Shown: in pieces, positions 1,731 through 18,787 of the stretch
How positions within the stretch are numbered: position 1 is the first letter of the stretch
Layout: the number at the start of each line of letters is the position of its first letter
IMG/VR virus record: IMGVR_UViG_3300008267_009253
Span: 1-20,419 of that record
Direction: 5' to 3' (one strand)
From: a virus
Length of the DNA stretch: 20,419 bases
The notes under the pieces: generated by a model
The model's database searches: none
Told to the model about the DNA's origin: nothing
Seen by the model: the letters and a program-made list of their open reading frames with translations, nothing else
Made by a program: the position numbers and the translations under genes

Positions 1731-2441
1731 ATGAACTTCGATAAACTTGCAAATACGATTTCTGAAAGCTATTCAATAGCCTCAGAAGAGACTGAAGCCC
1801 GTCCGCCAAATCCAGAATTTTTGGCGTGGAAGAATACCCAGTCTCCTGAGTTTTTGAGTACTTTAAAAAATCCGTATTCATATTGGTATCTCAAAGTCCG
1901 TGGTAAAGGGCCTAATGTAGCTGATACTGAACCCCCTTCAATTGCCTCTACGACACCTAGCGCGATTTCATCCTCTAAGGAATATGCCCGTACACAGGAA
2001 GTAGTAGATGAAATTATTGCAGGCAACCCAAATGCTACTGTAGAAGACGTGCTTGCAGCTCTTGAACCTCGTATGCAAGTTTCTGGGCCGCTAGGCTTTA
2101 AATACGTAACCGACACTCAAGCTCTTCAGCAAATGCTTGATACTGCAAAGGGTATTGAAACCGGTGGTTCTGCAGAACCAGGTGAAGGAGATATCAATGA
2201 TGATAAAGCTGCTAAGCTTGACCGTCTACGCAAATTTATGGGTATGGGTCGCGGAGAACGAGATCTATACCTCAAGAAAGCTAAGGCTGCAGCTGCAGCT
2301 AAGGTAGCTGATTTTAACACTAAAGATAAAGAAGAAGACGATGAAGACGAAGAGGATATTGATCCGGATGTAAAGAGGTACGTCTCTCAACTAAAGGGCG
2401 GAGACGAAGATGAAGGGTCTGAAGATTACGAGAAGGATTAA
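1731..2441 (+). CDS. Hypothetical protein with acidic C-terminal tail, probable virion/head-related
   Basis: Unrecognised 236-aa protein. The N-terminus (MNFDKLANTISESYS) is a short amphipathic helix like the opening of many T4-type head proteins; the next 100 residues are rich in Pro, Ser and Thr. An alanine/lysine-rich helix (about 182-195) precedes a strongly acidic C-terminus (DKEEDDEDEEDIDPD and GGDEDEGSEDYEKD). Such acidic tails fit DNA-mimic, scaffold-core or assembly proteins. It has its own late-type octamer upstream and meets the head-completion gene tail to tail with overlapping stop codons, both of which support a late role. No catalytic motif is visible. Confidence 0.6.
   Translation: MNFDKLANTISESYSIASEETEARPPNPEFLAWKNTQSPEFLSTLKNPYSYWYLKVRGKGPNVADTEPPSIASTTPSAISSSKEYARTQEVVDEIIAGNPNATVEDVLAALEPRMQVSGPLGFKYVTDTQALQQMLDTAKGIETGGSAEPGEGDINDDKAAKLDRLRKFMGMGRGERDLYLKKAKAAAAAKVADFNTKDKEEDDEDEEDIDPDVKRYVSQLKGGDEDEGSEDYEKD
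2165..2180. repeat. 16-bp perfect palindrome
   Basis: TGGTTCTGCAGAACCA reads identically on both strands with no spacer, inside the acidic-tailed protein gene. It could bind a dimeric protein or be chance; no function is inferred. Confidence 0.4.
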
Positions 2442-2893
2442 CCTTTTAAGAACTTTTCAGTTAGTATAATAAATTTCATTCCTTTTTTAGCCGCGTATTC
2501 AGACGCGGCTTTCCATTTACACTGGTTTTGGTGGTACATTAAGTTCTCATAGAGAACAGTACTGCTTTTTTTCTTATTAGATTGCTTAGGTGGTAACGTT
2601 TGGCAATGCGGTTTTAATTCTATTAAATACTTTTGCACGTTACCTTGTTCATCTTTTATTGCTGCAATTAAATCTATATAGTAACGGTGTACTTTTTTAT
2701 CTACATCATTGTAGTAAGGCACAACTATAGACTCACTTGCCCATGCAACTACATTTGCGTTTTTGTCAAAGTGTAAAAAGAAGTCTCTTTCTAAAGAAGA
2801 TCTGTAGGAAGGATTAGTACTACCTTTGTATTTTTCTTTATTTATAGGGGTATAAATGCCTTGAAAGTACTTGTTATTTTTAGGGTACGCCAT
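2438..2893 (-). CDS. 4: Head completion protein, T4 gp4 (gp50) family
   Basis: A 151-aa protein matching the T4 gp4/gp50 head-completion family in length and motif order: an N-terminal tyrosine- and glycine-rich stretch (KYKGSTNPSYRSSLE), WASESIVVPYY (about 51-61), a YYIDLIAAIKDEQG segment, then a YLIELKP motif (89-95) and a C-terminal KFIILTE. Together E36, D74 and E92-x-K94 resemble a PD-(D/E)XK nuclease core, as noted for this family. In T4 the protein is needed after DNA packaging to make heads competent for tail joining, possibly by processing DNA ends. It is on the minus strand, divergent from the primase, with a GGTAAGTA late-type octamer 10 bases before its ATG, and it converges with the acidic-tailed gene. 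Confidence 0.85.
   Translation of the reverse strand: MAYPKNNKYFQGIYTPINKEKYKGSTNPSYRSSLERDFFLHFDKNANVVAWASESIVVPYYNDVDKKVHRYYIDLIAAIKDEQGNVQKYLIELKPHCQTLPPKQSNKKKSSTVLYENLMYHQNQCKWKAASEYAAKKGMKFIILTEKFLKG
2489..2510 (+). terminator. Hairpin, possible terminator of the 1731-2441 gene, inside antisense gp4
   Basis: AGCCGCGT, a 6-base loop (ATTCAG) and ACGCGGCT form a perfect, G+C-rich 8-bp stem followed by TTTCCATTT. It starts 48 bases after the stop codon of the plus-strand gene and lies wholly within the oppositely oriented gp4 coding sequence. The U-tract is short, so termination is plausible rather than certain. On the minus strand the stem is not followed by Ts. Confidence 0.45.
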
Positions 2894-3938: not shown

Positions 3939-4585
3939 TAGCTATAACCAAGCCGCTTAATATTTCAGAAGCGTCTTTAACCCCTGAAGAGTTTATTGTT
4001 TATATTGCCCGAGTAAGCAATCCTGCTAATCAATTAAACGTAGAAACCGGTCACAGACTTATTCGTTATCTTATTAAGCATAAGCACTGGAGTCCCTTTG
4101 AACATGTTACAGTCACGTATGAAATTAAAACCTCTAGAGGTATTGCTGCTCAAATACTAAGACACCGTTCGTTTACGTTCCAGGAATTTAGTCAGCGTTA
4201 TGCTCAAGCTACTGACCTTGAGCTTATCGAATGGCGTAAACAGGGTAAAAGTAATAGACAAGTTGGGGATGAACCTGTAACCTTACCTCGTCATTTACAG
4301 TATGCAGTTGAAGAGTGTCAGCGCAATACAAAAGCGCTTTATGATCAATTAATCGGAGAGGGCATAGCTAAGGAATCAGCACGTATGATTCTACCGCTTT
4401 CCACGCAAACTACTATTTATATGTCTGGCACTCTACGTAGTTGGATACATTATCTAGATCTTCGTTGTGCTGAATCTACTCAAAAAGAGCATAGATTGAT
4501 AGCTCTAGACATTAAAAAAGGTCTCGAAGAATTGTTTCCCGAGACCTTTAAGGCTATTAATGAATTAGCTATTAACGCGGAGTAG
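3923..4585 (+). CDS. thyX: Flavin-dependent thymidylate synthase ThyX
   Basis: Methylates dUMP to dTMP using methylene-tetrahydrofolate, NADPH and FAD, supplying thymidine for replication. The signature RHRSFTFQEFSQRY (residues 80-93) matches the ThyX motif RHRxxSxxxxSxRY apart from a Thr for the first Ser. The N-terminal HWSPFEH segment (55-61) and C-terminal LRCAESTQKEHR are also typical. At 220 aa it is the usual length. It overlaps the primase by 16 bases, so the two are probably cotranscribed and coupled. Its last codons overlap the oppositely oriented virion gene by 14 bases and contain a hairpin that appears to serve that gene. Confidence 0.95.
   Translation: MHTKLIAITKPLNISEASLTPEEFIVYIARVSNPANQLNVETGHRLIRYLIKHKHWSPFEHVTVTYEIKTSRGIAAQILRHRSFTFQEFSQRYAQATDLELIEWRKQGKSNRQVGDEPVTLPRHLQYAVEECQRNTKALYDQLIGEGIAKESARMILPLSTQTTIYMSGTLRSWIHYLDLRCAESTQKEHRLIALDIKKGLEELFPETFKAINELAINAE
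4517..4549 (-). terminator. Rho-independent terminator for the minus-strand gene, inside thyX
   Basis: AAAGGTCTCG (4517-4526) and CGAGACCTTT (4540-4549) form a perfect 10-bp stem with a 13-base loop. Read on the minus strand the stem is followed by a run of T (CCTTTTTTAAT), and it begins 22 bases after the stop of the minus-strand virion gene. On the plus strand it lies in the last codons of thyX and has no clear T-run. Confidence 0.7.
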
Positions 4586-5360
4586 TAGCGTCTTTTACTT
4601 TCTTTTCAGAGGTAATAACCACCGACTTAAATACTTCAGCTAAGCCGCGAAGATTTTCTGCTAACTTAGTAATGCGCTTTTCTTCGCGGCGAACAACCCC
4701 GCGAAACGGAATAGAATTTTTAATTTCTAACTGATTAATTTGAGAATTTAAACTTTCTGGCCCGGTACCGTTAACGAACTCAGCTATTTCTTCTAGTTTA
4801 GAAATCCAACCACGAGCAGCATCAACCCCAGAGGAATCTACATTAAGCTGTGGGTTATCTGCTACATCAAAATCTGTTGGATCAGTACCCTTGTCTAATG
4901 AACGCTTGTAAGCTTCTTCGTCTGACATTTCATCCCCAGCTGGAGCAGGAATATCACCGACAGCTTCTTTCATAGCCATTTTTGTTGCAGTTGCGTATTT
5001 AATTTTTTTACCTTCTTTCTTACCGTACTGCTTTGTAAATGCATTAGTAGGTAATTTTTTATGTAATTTTTTAGCTTTCTTTTTTTCAGAAGGAGTCATA
5101 TGTCTCTCTTTTACTTCTACAGTCTTACCACCAATTTCAAACGACTTTTCACCAGATGCTTTAGCTTTAGCAAGCTTACCTGTAAAAGCATTACCTTCTG
5201 CTTCTTCTTTCTTTAAACCTTTTTTCATACGCAAAGCTGCAAAATCAGCACTAGTAATTTTGCCATGCGGTGAAGCAACATCTATGTTACCTTGTTTACC
5301 GTGCAACTTTTCGTTTTCTTCATTAAGGGATTTTAAAAATGTATGTGCGAACTTAGACAT
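4572..5360 (-). CDS. Predicted internal virion protein, Lys-rich (262 aa)
   Basis: Unrecognised at family level. The first ATG gives MSKFAHTFLKSLNEE; a TTG three codons upstream is less likely. The amphipathic opening followed by Glu resembles the capsid-targeting sequence of T4 internal proteins, which gp21 cleaves after [hydrophobic]-x-E. A very basic middle (SEKKKAKKLHKK, then QYGKKEGKKIKYATATKMA at about 113-131) could bind DNA; the YATATKMA element recurs in phage proteins. The C-terminal third is helical and ends in KKVKDATTPR. A GATAAATA octamer 9 bases before the ATG and a strong terminator after the stop mark it as a single late transcription unit on the minus strand. An internal or core head protein is the best inference. 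Confidence 0.6.
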   Translation of the reverse strand: MSKFAHTFLKSLNEENEKLHGKQGNIDVASPHGKITSADFAALRMKKGLKKEEAEGNAFTGKLAKAKASGEKSFEIGGKTVEVKERHMTPSEKKKAKKLHKKLPTNAFTKQYGKKEGKKIKYATATKMAMKEAVGDIPAPAGDEMSDEEAYKRSLDKGTDPTDFDVADNPQLNVDSSGVDAARGWISKLEEIAEFVNGTGPESLNSQINQLEIKNSIPFRGVVRREEKRITKLAENLRGLAEVFKSVVITSEKKVKDATTPR

Positions 5361-5369
5361 AGTTACCAA

Positions 5370-5419: not shown

Positions 5420-6139
5420 ATGACAAAAGCATTAGTAATTCTTTCCGGTGGAATGGATAGTTCTGTATTGCTACACCATGTTGCACGTACACTCAATTAT
5501 AAGGAAGTATATGCTATTACGTTTAATTATGGGCAGCGGATTGCTAGAGAAATTGAATGCGCTAAGTTTCAAGCTAAAGATTGTTGTGTAAAGGAGCATA
5601 AAATCGTTAATATGGATTTCTTTAGAGATATCTCAAAGATGTCCGCTTTAACTAATACAGATCTAAAAATACCAAAGGCTAGAGAAGATATTGGTAATGC
5701 CCAGCCTTTGAGCTATGTTCCGTTTCGTAATCTTTTACTTTTAACTACCACTGCCGGATGGGCTGAAAGTATTGGGGCGGAGCATCTGTATTACGGCGCT
5801 GTACAAACTGATGATTTTAGTGGTTATTGGGATTGTACATCTTTATTTTTAAATAAAGTTAATGACGTGTACAACTTGAATCGTAAAAACAATATTCAAG
5901 TTAAAGCACCGTTTATGACTTATACTAAAGAAGAAGTGATTAAGACAGGTATTAACTTGCAAGTAGACTTTCGACAGACTCATACATGTTATGAAGGCAC
6001 TGACCCGGCCTGCGGAGAATGTGTTTCATGCGCTGCTCGTATTAAAGGGTTTATTGATAATGGCGCTATTGATCCTATTGCTTACAAGAAAGATATTCCC
6101 TGGTCTAAATACAACTGCAAAGAATTAACTTATCTATAA
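5420..6139 (+). CDS. queC: QueC, 7-cyano-7-deazaguanine (preQ0) synthase
   Basis: Converts CDG to preQ0 using ATP and ammonia. The N-terminal PP-loop SGGMDSS (residues 9-15) binds ATP, and the C-terminal zinc site is complete: C190, C198, C201 and C204 in CYEGTDPACGECVSC. Its 239 aa is a normal length for the stand-alone enzyme. With queE at the left edge, this is the second of the four classical preQ0 genes; folE and queD are not in the window. The class II glutamine amidotransferase gene starts two bases after the queC stop codon, so the two are almost certainly cotranslated. That pairing recalls Gat-QueC, known as a fusion in archaea and linked to archaeosine-type DNA bases in some phages. 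Confidence 0.96.
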   Translation: MTKALVILSGGMDSSVLLHHVARTLNYKEVYAITFNYGQRIAREIECAKFQAKDCCVKEHKIVNMDFFRDISKMSALTNTDLKIPKAREDIGNAQPLSYVPFRNLLLLTTTAGWAESIGAEHLYYGAVQTDDFSGYWDCTSLFLNKVNDVYNLNRKNNIQVKAPFMTYTKEEVIKTGINLQVDFRQTHTCYEGTDPACGECVSCAARIKGFIDNGAIDPIAYKKDIPWSKYNCKELTYL

Positions 6140-11968: not shown

Positions 11969-13090
11969 GTGCAGAAGTACACATATCACTGGGAAGTAAA
12001 GGATTTATTAACCCAATTTTTACAGGCCTTTGACGGGGCCATAGTAAAGCGTTATGATAATAACCGTCAAGCCGGTAATAATGTAGCGGTTAGATATGTT
12101 TATTCCCCTAAACAAAGAGTTTTACACGATTTAATTAATAAGGCTCAGCATATAACTTTACCCGCAGTTTCTTTTTGGATAAGTAGTATAAGCAGAGATC
12201 CTAGTAGAGTATTCAATAAACTAGAAGGTCAGTACTGGACCAATACCACCACTTCAGTTTATAACAAAAGTTCTTCTAATACTAATTTACAACCAGTACC
12301 TGTTAATATAGAAGTAAGCGTTAGTATTTTAACTCGGTTTCAGACTGATATGGATCAAATTTTAAGTAATTTCGTTCCGTATAGTGATCCTTATTTTATT
12401 ATTTCCTGGACTAGAGAAGGAATGCCAGGGCTAGAAATACGTTCAGAAGTTCTATGGGGTGGTAGTTTAAATATGACATACCCAGTTGAGCAATCAGATA
12501 CACAGCCTACTCGGGTTATCTGTGATACTAGTTTCACTATAAAAGGGTGGCTATTTAAATACGATGCAGACCCTATTGGTAGAATATTTAAAATTGAAAA
12601 TAATTTTTACCCGGTCTCTGGAGTACCCACCTTACAAAATATTGACTCTCTCGTTAACCCTACACTAACTGAAACGTTTATACTTTCAGCTCGGCCGGTT
12701 ATTGCGTATAGTTCAGCTTGGTTTGCACAGCGCTCTCTTTCAGGTATTATAGAAATATATGGGGATATGTATTCTCATACTAATAATGTTTACCTTAGTG
12801 GTAGTACGGGTATGTTTACAGGCACTACCACAATTAACCCGTTTTCAGCTTCTACAAGTTTATCTGCGTCTTATCCTGCCCTTACAGGTGTTGTACCCGC
12901 TTTAGATTACTACGCTATAAGTGACAACAAGATGATAGTAACGTATCAAGCACCCGCCGGGATTGGAAGCTTTGATATAATAGTAGTTAATGATGCTGGC
13001 TACACTAAACTTTCAACCGATTCGTATAACCCTAATTATTCAACTCAGTACCCTTACGTCTCGGGGGTACAAGTAACAAACCCTAACTAG
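11969..13090 (+). CDS. 15: Proximal tail sheath stabiliser/connector, T4 gp15 family, C-terminally extended
   Basis: Caps the contractile tail tube and sheath and joins it to the neck. The start is GTG (QKYTYHWEVKDLL). Residues 1-230 follow T4 gp15: FDGAIVKRYDNN then VRYVYSPKQRVLHDLINK (compare IQIKRQ and VPITYASKEHFMMKLNK), a VSVSILTRFQTDMDQIL segment (compare LSIFTRYEDDMFQIV), the PYSDPYF sequence and a conserved TSFTIKGWLF strand (compare LTFEVNGWMY). The protein is 373 aa against 272 in T4. The extra C-terminal ~110 residues look like an Ig/IPT-type beta domain (SGSTGMFTGTTTINPF and APAGIGSFDIIVVNDAGY). It precedes the LamG gene and portal on the plus strand. Confidence 0.85.
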   Translation: MQKYTYHWEVKDLLTQFLQAFDGAIVKRYDNNRQAGNNVAVRYVYSPKQRVLHDLINKAQHITLPAVSFWISSISRDPSRVFNKLEGQYWTNTTTSVYNKSSSNTNLQPVPVNIEVSVSILTRFQTDMDQILSNFVPYSDPYFIISWTREGMPGLEIRSEVLWGGSLNMTYPVEQSDTQPTRVICDTSFTIKGWLFKYDADPIGRIFKIENNFYPVSGVPTLQNIDSLVNPTLTETFILSARPVIAYSSAWFAQRSLSGIIEIYGDMYSHTNNVYLSGSTGMFTGTTTINPFSASTSLSASYPALTGVVPALDYYAISDNKMIVTYQAPAGIGSFDIIVVNDAGYTKLSTDSYNPNYSTQYPYVSGVQVTNPN

Positions 13091-13856: not shown

Positions 13857-15683
13857 ATGGCTGACGACGTAAAACCTAATTTCTTTACTAAAGCTTTTAA
13901 CAACTTTGTAAACAAACTACCTTATACTAATAACGTACAGGTTATTACGGATATTAAATCTTTAAATCCAAAGTTTGAAACGTTTTATAATATCAGTTCT
14001 TCTGCTAAGGAAAAGATTTATAATCAAGCAGTTTCTACCGCCCAGGATAAGGATATTAATATACCCACTCTTGACGGTATTGTAATTAATAGAGCGTATC
14101 ATGACTATCTTTATGCGCTTGTAGATACGGACAAGCCAAAGAGGTTAGCGGATTATCGCATTATGGCTTCTTATGCTGAAATAAGCGCAGCATTAGATGA
14201 AATTTGCGATGAAATTTTTGTTAAAGACGATAAAGGTAGGTACGCCTCTCTTAAGGTTAGTGAAAGTAAAGATGAAATTATAGTTAAAGAGCTACAGAAA
14301 AACTTTAACAATATTATTGAATTATTTAATTTAGAGAACAAAGGGTTCGAATATTTTAGAGCAATATTAATAGATGCGGAACTTTACTTTGAAAATGTAA
14401 TTAACGAAAAGAAAAAAGAAGCAGGTATTATTGGTATTGTACAAATACCTACCGAGCACATTAACCCTATTTACGATAACGTACAAAATATGTTAATAAA
14501 AGGGTTTTTGCTACGTAAACCTGTTATCGACACTTCGACTAATAACCGTTATACTTCTAAACAAGAGTTAATACCTCTTGAACGCCATCAAGTAAGCTAC
14601 TTTCATTCAGGTACTTGGAACGAACATAAAACTATTCGTTTACCTTATATTGAAGTTGCGCGTAGAGCATATAAACAACTTTCCTTAATAGAAGATAGTA
14701 TTGTGGTGTATCGTTTAGTAAGAGCGCCTGAGCGTTTAGTTTTTAAAGTAGACGTAGGTAATATGCCAGCCCCTAAAGCTGAAGCTTATATTAAACGTCT
14801 GATGCAATCATATTGGTCCCGTAGAACCTATGATTCGACTCAAGGTAATTCGGTTAATGTCTACGACCCACAAAGCATGTTAGATAGCTATTGGTTTGCT
14901 AAGCGCCCCGATGGCAGTGGTACCGATGTTGTCAGCTTACCAGGTGGAGCTAATCTCGGTCAATTAGATGATCTTAACTACTTCGTTAATAAACTTTATA
15001 AAGCATTAAGAGTACCTTCAAGTCGTTTAAACCCTGACACGAAGTTTGCTGACGGAGCAGAAATTCTTAGAGAAGAACTTAAATTTGCTAAATTAATTAT
15101 TAGATTGCAGCGTCAGTTTGCATCTGCACTAAAAGAGACTTTTATTACCCATTTAAAGCTTAAAGGCCTTTGGGAACAATACAAACTTAGAGAAACTGAT
15201 ATTTATATAGGCCTTAACCCCCCTTCTTATTTTCACGTTGCTAGAGAAACTCAAATACAAGAACTTAAATTTAAAACCTTTAGCGATTTAGTAGGCACTG
15301 ATGCTGTTTCTAAGTCTTATGCTCTAAAGCGTTATATGGGCTGGACAGATGAAGAAGTTAAAGCTAATAGAGAGTGGCAGAAAAAAGACGCTGCATTTGT
15401 ATTTGAAATTAATCAAATTACTAATTCCGGACCAAATTGGAGAGAGGGTATAACTGCTGGCCCGGGCGCGGAGCAAGGCGGAGCACCAGCTGGTGGTGGT
15501 GCTGGCCCTGGTGGTGCACCACCTTCCTTTGGTCCTGGCCCTGGTGGCGGGGCATCTGAACTACCACCGCCTGAAGCTGGAGCGCCTGGAGCACCTGAAG
15601 GCGGGCCGCCTGCAGCTTCGGCTGGAGCTCCTGCAGCCCCAGCACCAGCTGGTGGAGCACCTAGCGCATTACCGGCTATTTAG
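13857..15683 (+). CDS. 20: Portal protein gp20
   Basis: Forms the dodecameric portal vertex used for head initiation, DNA packaging and tail attachment. The body (residues ~1-520) has T4-family gp20 features: RMASYAEISAALDEICDEI near residues 100-120, the VIPTEHI-like VQIPTEHINPIYD, a YFHSGTW segment, and the highly conserved GGANLGQLDDLNYF and LRVPSSRLN block at about 360-390 used to classify marine T4-like phages. At 608 aa it is longer than T4 gp20 (524) because of a Gly/Ala/Pro-rich tail from about residue 524 to the end. That tail is visibly G+C-rich and repetitive compared with the rest. The stop overlaps the stop of the minus-strand neck gene. Confidence 0.96.
   Translation: MADDVKPNFFTKAFNNFVNKLPYTNNVQVITDIKSLNPKFETFYNISSSAKEKIYNQAVSTAQDKDINIPTLDGIVINRAYHDYLYALVDTDKPKRLADYRIMASYAEISAALDEICDEIFVKDDKGRYASLKVSESKDEIIVKELQKNFNNIIELFNLENKGFEYFRAILIDAELYFENVINEKKKEAGIIGIVQIPTEHINPIYDNVQNMLIKGFLLRKPVIDTSTNNRYTSKQELIPLERHQVSYFHSGTWNEHKTIRLPYIEVARRAYKQLSLIEDSIVVYRLVRAPERLVFKVDVGNMPAPKAEAYIKRLMQSYWSRRTYDSTQGNSVNVYDPQSMLDSYWFAKRPDGSGTDVVSLPGGANLGQLDDLNYFVNKLYKALRVPSSRLNPDTKFADGAEILREELKFAKLIIRLQRQFASALKETFITHLKLKGLWEQYKLRETDIYIGLNPPSYFHVARETQIQELKFKTFSDLVGTDAVSKSYALKRYMGWTDEEVKANREWQKKDAAFVFEINQITNSGPNWREGITAGPGAEQGGAPAGGGAGPGGAPPSFGPGPGGGASELPPPEAGAPGAPEGGPPAASAGAPAAPAPAGGAPSALPAI
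15430..15680 (+). repeat. Low-complexity Gly/Ala/Pro-coding tract of gp20
   Basis: Imperfect repeats of GGAPAGG-, GPGG- and PAAPAP-type units encode the portal tail. A CACCAGCTGGTG palindrome occurs twice (near 15484 and 15650). The tract is much richer in G+C than the flanks. Other frames also stay open here because of composition, not coding. Confidence 0.7.
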
Positions 15684-16531
15684 CCCATGAAGAACATCGG
15701 CGGTTCTTGATCTTCTAAATCTTTCTTTTCTGTGGTACCTTGGGTCATTAAATCTTGGTAAGCTATGGTACCACTACCGAATAAAGATGTGCCTTGATAC
15801 TTACCACGAGTATTAGCTAAAGATATTTTTATTAATGCTTTAGCATATTCCATTACCCAACGTTCTTTTACTAAATCCTTAATTGGGCGCTCTAATTTAC
15901 ATGCAATTATTGCCCAGTAGCGATTGTTACCAGGACGTGCCGGGTCAGGAGTAATACGTAATACTTGAGTACGAGGGTCAAATCTAAAATAAGGCTGCAT
16001 TGCAAAGACCTTTTCCCGGGTCTTTAACCAGTCCTTTAAGATATGCCATGAAATTACATCAAATGCTTTACTACCTAAAGAATAAGCAAAGTGCATTTGT
16101 TGCGCTAGAGACTGCTCAATAGTAAACAAGGTGTTTACCCCCTCGTTAGTGCCTACTGAGAAGGAACTTACGTCTTGTACTTTTCTCCATACTTCTAAAT
16201 CTTGATCCCAACCGGATTGAAAAGTTGAACTTAGTGCAGAAACCTCAGGGTTTAAAGTATTGTTTATAAGAGTATCTAATTTTATACCCTTACCGTATGT
16301 GTATAAGTTACTATCAAATACTAATAGTTCTTCGGTACCTGGTACAAAGCGAGAATACATTTCGCATGCATAAGCTATAGAATCGTAAGCCGCTACGCAG
16401 GCTATTTCTAAATTAATTAATGGCGCTCCTAGTTGAAAGAATATTCTTTCAGCCAGCAAATCATAAGAAGTTATGCGGGAATTTAAATTTGTAGATAAAA
16501 ATGCGGACGGGCCAATAGTATTCGTAGCCAT
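15680..16531 (-). CDS. Probable neck/head-tail connector protein (gp13-like)
   Basis: A 283-aa protein. The N-terminus (SYDLLAERIFFQLGAPLINLEI followed by YDSIAYACEMYSRF) matches the pattern of T4-type neck proteins, where a 'RLGAP-x-x-x-x-E' strand precedes an acidic/aromatic helix. The C-terminal half holds WAIIACKLERPIKDLVKERW then an ALIKISLANTRGKYQ helix, as in gp13-like proteins of T4-like phages. T4 gp13 is 309 aa. It would sit between portal and tail. It is on the minus strand facing the portal, their stop codons overlapping, with its own late octamer (AGTAAGTA) 7 bases before the ATG. gp14 is the main alternative; a structure comparison would decide. Confidence 0.5.
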   Translation of the reverse strand: MATNTIGPSAFLSTNLNSRITSYDLLAERIFFQLGAPLINLEIACVAAYDSIAYACEMYSRFVPGTEELLVFDSNLYTYGKGIKLDTLINNTLNPEVSALSSTFQSGWDQDLEVWRKVQDVSSFSVGTNEGVNTLFTIEQSLAQQMHFAYSLGSKAFDVISWHILKDWLKTREKVFAMQPYFRFDPRTQVLRITPDPARPGNNRYWAIIACKLERPIKDLVKERWVMEYAKALIKISLANTRGKYQGTSLFGSGTIAYQDLMTQGTTEKKDLEDQEPPMFFMG

Positions 16532-16538
16532 ACCACAA

Positions 16539-16546
16539 TACTTACT
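16539..16546 (-). promoter_or_regulatory. Putative late promoter of the gp13-like gene (AGTAAGTA)
   Basis: On the minus strand AGTAAGTA ends 7 bases before the ATG at 16531 and overlaps the stop codon of the upstream GT9-like gene. It would let the neck gene be transcribed apart from the glycosyltransferases. Confidence 0.5.
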
Positions 16547-17015
16547 ACATCCCTAATACTTTTATAACTGCATCTCTTACAGTATCTACACTCACAAATG
16601 CATCTTTATTAAACTCGCATTGTTCCCAAAGCCAAAACTGTTTTTCTCTTAAATATTTTTTATGTTTAAGCAAATTAACGTTTTCTTTATATCCGAATAT
16701 TTCAGGATTAGATTGAGAAAATATAACTACCCCTTGCTTACGCTCATAGTTATGATTCATATGTTGCAGGAAACTATCAACTGATATCCAGGTATCGCAT
16801 TCGTTTATAAGATTTCTTATCTCTTTTAATTTTAAATTCTGCTTAAACTCAGTTACTCCTGGTATAGGCTTATCTTTACTTGCTCCTATTTGTATAACTT
16901 TAATATTAAAATTTATTAATAAAGCTACTAACTCAGTCCAATATGGAAAATTTTTAGGGTTTTCCTTACCGTTACGCAATGCTTGCGCATAGGGGCTTAT
17001 TAGTACTTGTTTCAT
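16545..17015 (-). CDS. GT9-like glycosyltransferase C-terminal (nucleotide-sugar-binding) domain
   Basis: A 156-aa protein matching only the C-terminal half of heptosyltransferase-type (GT9, GT-B fold) enzymes: VLISPYAQALRNGKENPKNFPYWTELV (K/N-x-PYW is typical), VIQIGASKDKPIPGV, then the ICxxC-like region LIN-ECDTWISVDSFLQHM where GT9 has 'DTGxxHLA', and VIFSQSNPEIFGY near the end. The matching N-terminal half is not in this gene but at the C-terminus of the gene directly upstream, which it overlaps by 4 bases (ATGA). The two polypeptides may therefore associate as a split GT9. Normal GT9 length is about 300-350 aa. It lies on the minus strand between virion genes. Confidence 0.65.
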   Translation of the reverse strand: MKQVLISPYAQALRNGKENPKNFPYWTELVALLINFNIKVIQIGASKDKPIPGVTEFKQNLKLKEIRNLINECDTWISVDSFLQHMNHNYERKQGVVIFSQSNPEIFGYKENVNLLKHKKYLREKQFWLWEQCEFNKDAFVSVDTVRDAVIKVLGM

Positions 17016-18067
17016 GATGTATATTTTGTTTTATAGGCTTCCCCTAATGACTTGGCCCAGTTATGTTTATCCATCCAAGCATATATATTATTTTCATCTT
17101 TATTTACCAATAGACAAGATTCAGCTAAACTTACTACCTCTACACCGATATCTTCTTCAAATACTTCAGGGTAACATGCTCCTATAATAATTCTATGGTC
17201 AAAATATTTCTTTTTTACAGCGGGTAAAGCAGTATAACGGAAAGCATAATGATCCCCTATACCTCCGTCCAGCGGTATTACTTTAATCTTAGAGATCGGT
17301 ACTTTCCATTTTCTTAAATATTCGTAGAATATTTTTTCATCTTGCTCAAAAAGTTTTACTTCATTTTGACTACGTATACCGCCTGCTCCGTAACGCATAT
17401 GCCAAGTCTTAACATCGGTTAAAACAACTAACCTCCAGTCTGTCCTTTTCATTTCATATGTAAAAATAGTCTCTTCTCTATGACCTACTTTAGAAAGCCT
17501 TAAATCATACCCGTGCTTACCAGCTTCCTTACGAAATAAAAATGTACTACCCTGTAAATGATCGACCTCGATTGTTTTTTGCTCGTGTTTTTCCATCCAC
17601 TGTATGTTTAGACCTAAAAATATATCTTCTATTTTATTCGATCCTAGTTTACTATAATTAAAAGGGTTTTTAGGATCTAGTATCAACGGACCCACGGCCC
17701 CTACTCTTGGATTATTAAAAGCGTAATTACTTAATTTCTGCAATGTATCCGATTCCATTACATTGTCATCATCTAGACGCCAAATCCAATCTGTGTTTAC
17801 ATCTTCTAATGCTCGTTGATGATTGATAATTTGACCTCGTCGTCCACCCACCTTTACTTCCCAGTTAATACCGACTCTATTTAATAAGGTAAATAGATTT
17901 TTATAAATTTCATTTTCTCGTAAATCTTCTAAAGTCGGATTATCATCGTAAATAAAAATAGTTCCAGGTTTTACTGTCTGATTTATTACAGATGTTAAAA
18001 CTAACGGCAACGTTGTTGAAAAACGTCCTTTTGTAGACACTGTAGCGGTAACATTATCTAAAACCAT
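17012..18067 (-). CDS. GT2 glycosyltransferase fused to the N-terminal half of a GT9-like enzyme
   Basis: A 351-aa two-part protein. Residues 1-250 are a GT-A/GT2 transferase: VTATVSTKGR start, IFIYDDN (37-43), WRLDDDNVM with the DDD metal site (99-101), HLQGSTFLFRKEAG, and a late EETIFTYEMKRTDWRLV followed by TWHMRYG. From about 260 the chain reads KIKVIPLDGGIGDHY (GGIGDH at 268-273), RYTALPAVKKKYFDHRIIIG, the classic start of GT9 heptosyltransferases. It ends where the inter-domain linker would be, and the next gene begins with the GT9 C-domain through an ATGA overlap. Acceptors are unknown: virion protein, DNA base or host surface glycan. It diverges from gp21. No exact late octamer precedes it, only a TAATATAT stretch. 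Confidence 0.75.
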   Translation of the reverse strand: MVLDNVTATVSTKGRFSTTLPLVLTSVINQTVKPGTIFIYDDNPTLEDLRENEIYKNLFTLLNRVGINWEVKVGGRRGQIINHQRALEDVNTDWIWRLDDDNVMESDTLQKLSNYAFNNPRVGAVGPLILDPKNPFNYSKLGSNKIEDIFLGLNIQWMEKHEQKTIEVDHLQGSTFLFRKEAGKHGYDLRLSKVGHREETIFTYEMKRTDWRLVVLTDVKTWHMRYGAGGIRSQNEVKLFEQDEKIFYEYLRKWKVPISKIKVIPLDGGIGDHYAFRYTALPAVKKKYFDHRIIIGACYPEVFEEDIGVEVVSLAESCLLVNKDENNIYAWMDKHNWAKSLGEAYKTKYTS

Positions 18068-18127: not shown

Positions 18128-18787
18128 ATGCTTCTTAAACTTATTACACAAGCCCCTATTGTAGAAGGTTTGGACTTCTTAATTGAAGAAGGGAACAAAG
18201 ATAAACCAGCGAGCTTATATGTTACTGGTGTATATATGGTTGCTGACGAAAAAAATCGTAACAATCGTATTTATAGTAGAGAAGAAATGCAAAAAGAAGT
18301 AAATCGTTACAACGAAGAATTTGTTACTAAAAATAGAGCATTAGGAGAACTAGAACACCCTCAAAGTGCAACAGTAAACAGTGAAAGAGCTTGTCATCTA
18401 ATTACAGAGTTAAGAATGGATGATAATATTGTAAGAGGCAAAAGTAAAATACTCAGTACCCCTATGGGTAAAGTGATGGAGTCTTTAGTTAGAGATGGGG
18501 TAAAAATGGGTATGTCATCTAGAGCTCTTGGTCAATTAGAAGATAAAGGCGGTGTTAATATAGTAAAGAATATGAAACTAATAACTATCGATGCCGTAGC
18601 TGATCCTTCAGCCCCTGGGGCATTCGTCAATGGTATATTAGAGTCTAAAAATTTTATAATTAAACAAGACGGGGGATACGAAGAAGTGTATAATGCTTTT
18701 GAAAATAAACTTTCTTCTTTGCCGCGTAAAGAAGTAGATGCCTATTTAAGAGAGCATATTATCCGCTTCATTAATTCTATTAAATAA
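18128..18787 (+). CDS. 21: Prohead core protease gp21
   Basis: Serine protease that digests the scaffold and trims head proteins during maturation. Its 219 aa matches T4 gp21 (212). The catalytic His is in GELEHP (H77) and the Ser in GMSSRALG (S130), spaced as in T4 (H85, S140). The first residues (MLLKLITQAPIVEGL) contain an I-V-E site like the [hydrophobic]-x-E cleavage consensus, and the C-terminal VADPSAPGAFV is family-typical. It has its own late-type octamer, heads the 21-22-23 block and diverges from the glycosyltransferase pair on the minus strand. Confidence 0.95.
   Translation: MLLKLITQAPIVEGLDFLIEEGNKDKPASLYVTGVYMVADEKNRNNRIYSREEMQKEVNRYNEEFVTKNRALGELEHPQSATVNSERACHLITELRMDDNIVRGKSKILSTPMGKVMESLVRDGVKMGMSSRALGQLEDKGGVNIVKNMKLITIDAVADPSAPGAFVNGILESKNFIIKQDGGYEEVYNAFENKLSSLPRKEVDAYLREHIIRFINSIK

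Follow-up and report, generated by a model that had tools for sequence, protein, structure and literature searches.

The locus described here raises the question of whether two overlapping viral genes encode one GT9 glycosyltransferase divided between two polypeptides or a single protein broken by a one-base change; the original prediction had offered both readings. The window, by which we mean the whole stretch of 20,419 nucleotides that was analysed, is a 20.4-kb piece of a T4-like phage contig that also encodes a thymidylate synthase, a primase, and a helicase. A minus-strand trio comprising a 351-aa gene, a 156-aa gene, and an Ad2-like gene sits between the portal and protease genes, the Ad2-like gene lying immediately downstream of the 156-aa gene on the same strand as the split pair. 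The coordinates, lengths, and ATGA overlap that had been predicted for the two genes were all reproduced from the sequence. The features are as follows.

2438-2893, minus strand: head closure
11969-13090: tail sheath stabiliser
13857..15683, plus strand: T4-like portal protein gp20 (PF07230, E=5e-105)
15680..16531, minus strand: head-tail adaptor Ad2-like gene (PHROG 211, E=3.7e-16)
16545..17015, minus strand: downstream gene P0002, a GT9 C-domain as its own 156-aa protein (Pfam, PDB profile, fold, invariant columns)
17012..17015, minus strand: ATGA overlap of 4 bases, in which ATG opens the downstream gene and TGA closes the upstream gene
17012-18067, minus strand: upstream gene P0001, 351 aa, with a GT2 domain and, after it, a short GT9 N-domain
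17015..17302, minus strand: short GT9 N-domain, residues 256-351, ~96 aa (invariant columns, hhalign, fused relatives)
17303..18067, minus strand: GT2 (GT-A fold) domain, residues 1-255 (Pfam, AF2 model, fold match, invariant columns)
18128..18787, plus strand: gp21-like prohead core protease (PF03420, E=3.9e-31)

The second gene had been proposed to begin at the GT9 C-domain, which both its profile matches and its predicted fold bear out. The downstream protein matches Pfam PF01075 (Glyco_transf_9) with E=2.5e-5, above the curated cut-off, and the match spans positions 108-226 of the 247 in the profile, the C-terminal half only; a PDB profile search aligned the protein with residues 181-294 of WaaC (E=0.004). 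Its AlphaFold2 model (pLDDT 96.8) matches residues 180-345 of E. coli WaaF (1psw), the whole C-domain, with a Z-score of 16.9 and 2.2 Å over 137 residues, and residues 178-322 of WaaC (2h1h) with a Z-score of 15.2, thereby supplying the GT9 structural match on which the proposal for this gene depended. GT9 structures headed the fold ranking (Z 14-17), followed by GT1-type structures (Z about 9-11). K21 and H85 show no variation and D80 almost none; they align with K192, H266, and D261 of WaaC, respectively, which we take to be its donor-site residues, just as we take D13 of WaaC to be its catalytic base. The protein has the C-terminal Rossmann domain with the Lys and D[ST]xxxH donor-site motifs that marks GT9 members, and fold and motif together rule out a chance likeness to GT9.

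The upstream protein carries both of the motifs claimed for it, DDD at residues 99-101 and GGIGDH at residues 268-273. Its GT2 part matches PF13641 (E=8e-12) and PF00535 (E=2e-11), and the AF2 model of the whole protein (pLDDT 91.4) matches GalNAc-T2 with a Z-score of 19.8 over model residues 2-261. Among the 26-27 relatives aligned, D41 and D42, D99-D101, R197, E198 and E199, and W222 and H223 are invariant, and the GT-A domain with the DD and DxD motifs of GT2 is present. G269, G271, D272, and H273 of the GGIGDH motif are invariant in the same alignment. Taken alone, the part that contains this motif has neither a Pfam nor a PDB-profile match, and the fold-match list for the whole upstream model was taken up by its GT2 domain. 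Aligned by hhalign with 27 cellular GT9s, it gave E=2.6e-5 and a score of 37.3, compared with 23.4 for the best of 100 column shuffles, in the register of the GT9 N-terminus and through a strand-GxGD-helix-strand segment; an earlier profile-profile comparison with 11 cellular GT9s had been weak (19.8 versus 17.7 for the best of 30 shuffles). In four fused relatives, the part stands directly N-terminal to the C-domain. From the profile alignment and these fusions, we assign the 96-aa extension as a short GT9 N-domain, with the GxGD motif of GT9 recognised at the sequence level (the G and D of GIGD are invariant). The proposed GT9 N-domain stands as regards its N-terminal register, with the correction that it is short, ~96 aa compared with ~170 in WaaC. 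Because the predicted catalytic D272 lies on the upstream chain and the predicted donor-binding K21, D80, and H85 lie on the downstream chain, neither chain holds a complete GT9 site.

How widely this division occurs was read from IMG/VR scans, which returned at least 591 relatives of the upstream protein and at least 569 of the downstream protein; 308 loci were read, giving a sample of 163 distinct upstream sequences, which leans to relatives of the queries because the scans keep the best 80. The split is found in 155 of the 163, with 120 pairs adjacent and 35 apart, mostly with genes in between; of the rest, four are fused, three run off the contig end, and one has no C gene in reach. When only the 159 distinct pairs whose C-domain is in reach are counted, the split recurs in 155, at identities from 99% down to about 40%. 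An ATGA or GTGA overlap joins 108 of the 120 adjacent pairs, and the nearest relatives (L001-L004, 78-100% identical) share the ATGA junction of the window. Rough estimates of dN/dS, as dS is near saturation, are about 0.04-0.14 for both genes, against L002-L004 and against more distant relatives. These ratios indicate strong purifying selection on both halves, and on the evidence of its recurrence the split is an old arrangement kept across a large phage family. All characterised GT9 members known to us have both domains on one polypeptide; here and in the 155 distinct pairs they are encoded by two genes.

The four fused relatives are distant from the window proteins (about 38-44% identical) and carry linkers of 16-22 aa, mutually unrelated, exactly at the split junction; in one of them (L126), a single Pfam GT9 match spans the join (residues 338-487, profile 84-228). 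Among plasmids, none matched a fused form. Three fused forms fall at two places within the split family in a 104-row tree, implying at least two changes, and that tree does not include the fourth (L279), which came to light later; the direction from split to fused is likely rather than proven because the tree is rooted at its midpoint. The two gene trees are concordant (Mantel r 0.81, compared with 0.12 for the best of 1000 permutations), which indicates co-inheritance rather than contact, since shared vertical descent also gives agreement. Direct-coupling analysis of the pair, at a shallow effective depth of 96, gave no decisive signal between the N-domain and the C-domain, and its top scores probably reflect ancestry because the same few columns recur in all three comparisons.

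Other genes occupy the slot between the halves in many relatives. In several loci (e.g. L036:4510-4998) it is filled by a 163-aa methyltransferase that has ATGA at each end; L037 has a second GT2 there, and other genes occur in the slot as well. The inserted-gene state flips many times on the tree, and the sister pairs L160/L225, L195/L219, and L216/L217 differ in it. A single translated chain is excluded in the pairs whose halves lie apart, mostly by inserted genes, and the ATGA/GTGA overlaps, the slot genes, and the changes between sister pairs together make separate translation the rule. Four further observations concern these loci. The small methyltransferase gene, ATGA overlaps included, occupies the slot in L036 (4510-4998) and in about 15 distinct relatives, with sister pairs differing in having it. 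A GIY-YIG homing endonuclease gene lies exactly between the enzyme halves at L055:4192-4998. An intein (PF14890, LAGLIDADG) breaks the GT2 domain at the conserved DDD motif in a 170-kb phage contig (L061:2836-5001). On a 482-kb phage contig (L067:3483-5462), the GT9 C-domain forms the tail of a GT2-methyltransferase protein of 660 aa that is distinct from the usual upstream one, so a donor half has been re-attached elsewhere.

These observations bear on how the pair should be read. That the cut shifts the frame and that fused relatives exist might suggest a single GT2-GT9 gene interrupted at 17012-17015, whether by a recent indel or by an error in sequencing. We rejected it on the conserved split and regard it as extremely improbable: the closest relatives, from separate samples, are split at the same junction, the start codon and the ATGA are intact, dN/dS is far below 1 in both halves, and inserted genes separate the halves in many pairs. 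Close relatives with a continuous frame and an indel at these positions, which had been named as the sign of such a break, were not what the homologues revealed; with 155 split and four fused, the continuous frames are distant, bear linkers, and lack an indel repair. One chain could also be produced by programmed -1 frameshifting over the ATGA junction, as the C frame is usually -1 relative to the upstream gene and the open frames overlap by a median of 19 bases. Slippery-like heptamers, however, occur in only 18 of 120 junctions, other frame relations are also seen, the mechanism is impossible where genes are inserted, and the ATGA overlap is the usual form of coupled separate genes. The few heptamers and the inserted genes led us to reject programmed frameshifting as the general explanation, and we consider it very unlikely. 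The recurrence of the split, often with whole genes between the halves, instead supports the reading of GT2-GT9N and GT9C as two polypeptides.

Two polypeptides might nevertheless act independently, with a GT2 enzyme using its GT9-like tail to bind an acceptor or partner and the C-domain protein serving as a separate nucleotide-sugar binder. The separate translation of the halves is compatible with this, as are two incomplete records that have one half without the other nearby (L112, a 38-kb fragment with the upstream gene and no C gene, and L088, with a C gene and no upstream gene within 4 kb) and the C-domain joined to another protein in L067. Against it stand the tight co-inheritance and tree agreement, the repeated fusion at the same point, and the predicted catalytic Asp that all aligned members keep in their N-part, and we hold such independence to be unlikely.

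We therefore favour as the probable reading that the two genes form one glycosyltransferase unit, in which two chains, one of them bearing a GT2, come together to restore a naturally split GT-B enzyme. The domains, the conserved split, the co-inheritance, the purifying selection, and the natural fusions at the same point are the observations behind this two-chain reading; physical association, catalysis, the order of the sugars, and the acceptor are its inferred parts, for which we propose the following. The GT9 enzyme would be of the heptosyltransferase type, with a GT-B fold. Its donor-binding C-domain would be the downstream chain, whereas its N-domain, with D272 as the predicted catalytic base, would sit on the upstream chain, attached to a GT2 enzyme that is complete in itself. 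Both chains would be produced at the same time by translation coupled through the ATGA overlap, and they might then join non-covalently, with the GT9 site formed in the cleft between them by D272 and K21/D80/H85. The complex could add two sugars successively, one at the GT2 site and one at the reassembled GT9 site.

The acceptor would be a virion protein, with collagen-like tail fibres and neck/head proteins as candidates. Among 80 flanking proteins from 26 loci, we found 13 GT2s, 12 methyltransferases, eight proteins with collagen repeats, and eight of tail fibre families, with portal, prohead protease, and sheath stabiliser among the further families. Mycobacteriophages carry glycans on capsid and tail-tube proteins, according to the account of Freeman 2023 given in PMC12619734. 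Because of the tail fibre and neck/head neighbours, the tape-measure proximity of the pair in phage P19250A (described below), and these known virion glycans, a virion protein is probably the acceptor. Alternatively, the pair might modify host surface glycans or lipid-linked sugars, with a change of serotype or receptor, or the phage DNA; this concerns the acceptor only and is compatible with the two-chain reading. Both DNA and host surface glycans are known targets of phage glycosyltransferases (PMC12619734, PMC8024684), a GtrB-like PHROG is matched by 10 of the 80 flanking proteins, and the closest cellular short GT9 lies among other glycosyltransferase genes. The tail fibre or neck/head genes that adjoin the pair speak against such targets, which we consider a substantial possibility, although not the leading one. 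More speculative, and rather unlikely in this full form, is a phage-specific modular class of virion glycosylation in which GT9 is permanently split, the N half riding on a GT2 and the C half acting in trans, while donor halves, GT2s, and methyltransferases are swapped as junction cassettes that diversify the tail-fibre glycan.

GT-B enzymes in two pieces have precedents. Alg14/Alg13 of eukaryotes and EpsE/EpsF of bacteria and archaea are GT1/GT28-related split UDP-sugar transferases, for which an early split and repeated re-fusions have been inferred (PMC8993221), and separately expressed GT-B halves of plant GT1 enzymes self-assemble (PMC10937113). In the phage pair, too, a GT-B enzyme is divided where its acceptor (N) and donor (C) domains meet, with occasional re-fusion, a likeness of architecture only, but the pair belongs to GT9 rather than GT1/GT28, has its N half fused to a GT2, and is found here on phage contigs only. 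By this analogy, the pair resembles these systems in its presumed working, yet it is probably not a member of them; as regards kinship with the MurG/GT1/GT28 group, GT9 structures outranked GT1-type ones in the fold comparison given above. With the bacterial GT9 heptosyltransferases WaaC, WaaF, and TibC it shares the C-domain fold, the aligned Lys/Asp/His, and the N-terminal GxGD-type motif; those enzymes are single chains, whereas the pair has two chains and a much shorter N-domain. Our search of the literature accessible without subscription found no phage GT9 described as split or as linked to a GT2. If the two-chain reading is true, the pair would be a second, independent case of a split GT-B after the Alg14/Alg13-EpsE/EpsF line, this time in viruses and in a different family. 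It would also offer a natural experiment in which a two-domain enzyme was taken apart and rejoined, with the sister pairs that differ in the slot and the fused relatives as built-in controls, and many unannotated phage gene pairs would become readable as one system.

Among 50,697 phage records, the only isolate matched was Methylophilaceae phage P19250A, whose genes P19250A_0025/0026, both annotated as hypothetical, show the same split with an ATGA overlap; this pair is about 40-44% identical to that of the window and lies near the tape-measure gene, not the portal. Nearly all other relatives are metagenome contigs. A peptide-pattern scan of 84,980 species genomes gave five loci, the readable ones of which look like phage contigs. 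Across two bacterial phyla, sampled with 395 and 387 genomes, matches to the C-profile sit in frames of 291-561 aa, two phage contigs excepted; the cellular matches are, as far as their sequences tell, single-chain GT9s, and near relatives of the pair were found on phage contigs only. The best cellular C-profile match in the first phylum sampled, a 291-aa GT9 (L352), is recognised by the GT9N model (E=7.5e-6) as well as by the GT9C model, and its N-domain is comparably short, but it is one continuous frame with no GT2 attached and lies in a glycosyltransferase gene cluster.

Some minor observations concern the window itself. A QueC-like gene at 5420-6139 (PHROG 1550, E=4e-63) suggests a deazaguanine-type modification of DNA or tRNA in this phage. 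The C-terminal end of the portal protein (15440-15683) is a long tail rich in Gly, Pro, and Ala, and a 265-aa frame on the minus strand at 4572-5369 opposes the direction of its neighbours and has no PHROG match. Across both genes of the pair, the window is 99-100% identical to a viral contig of 5.5 kb (L001) that belongs to a different record.
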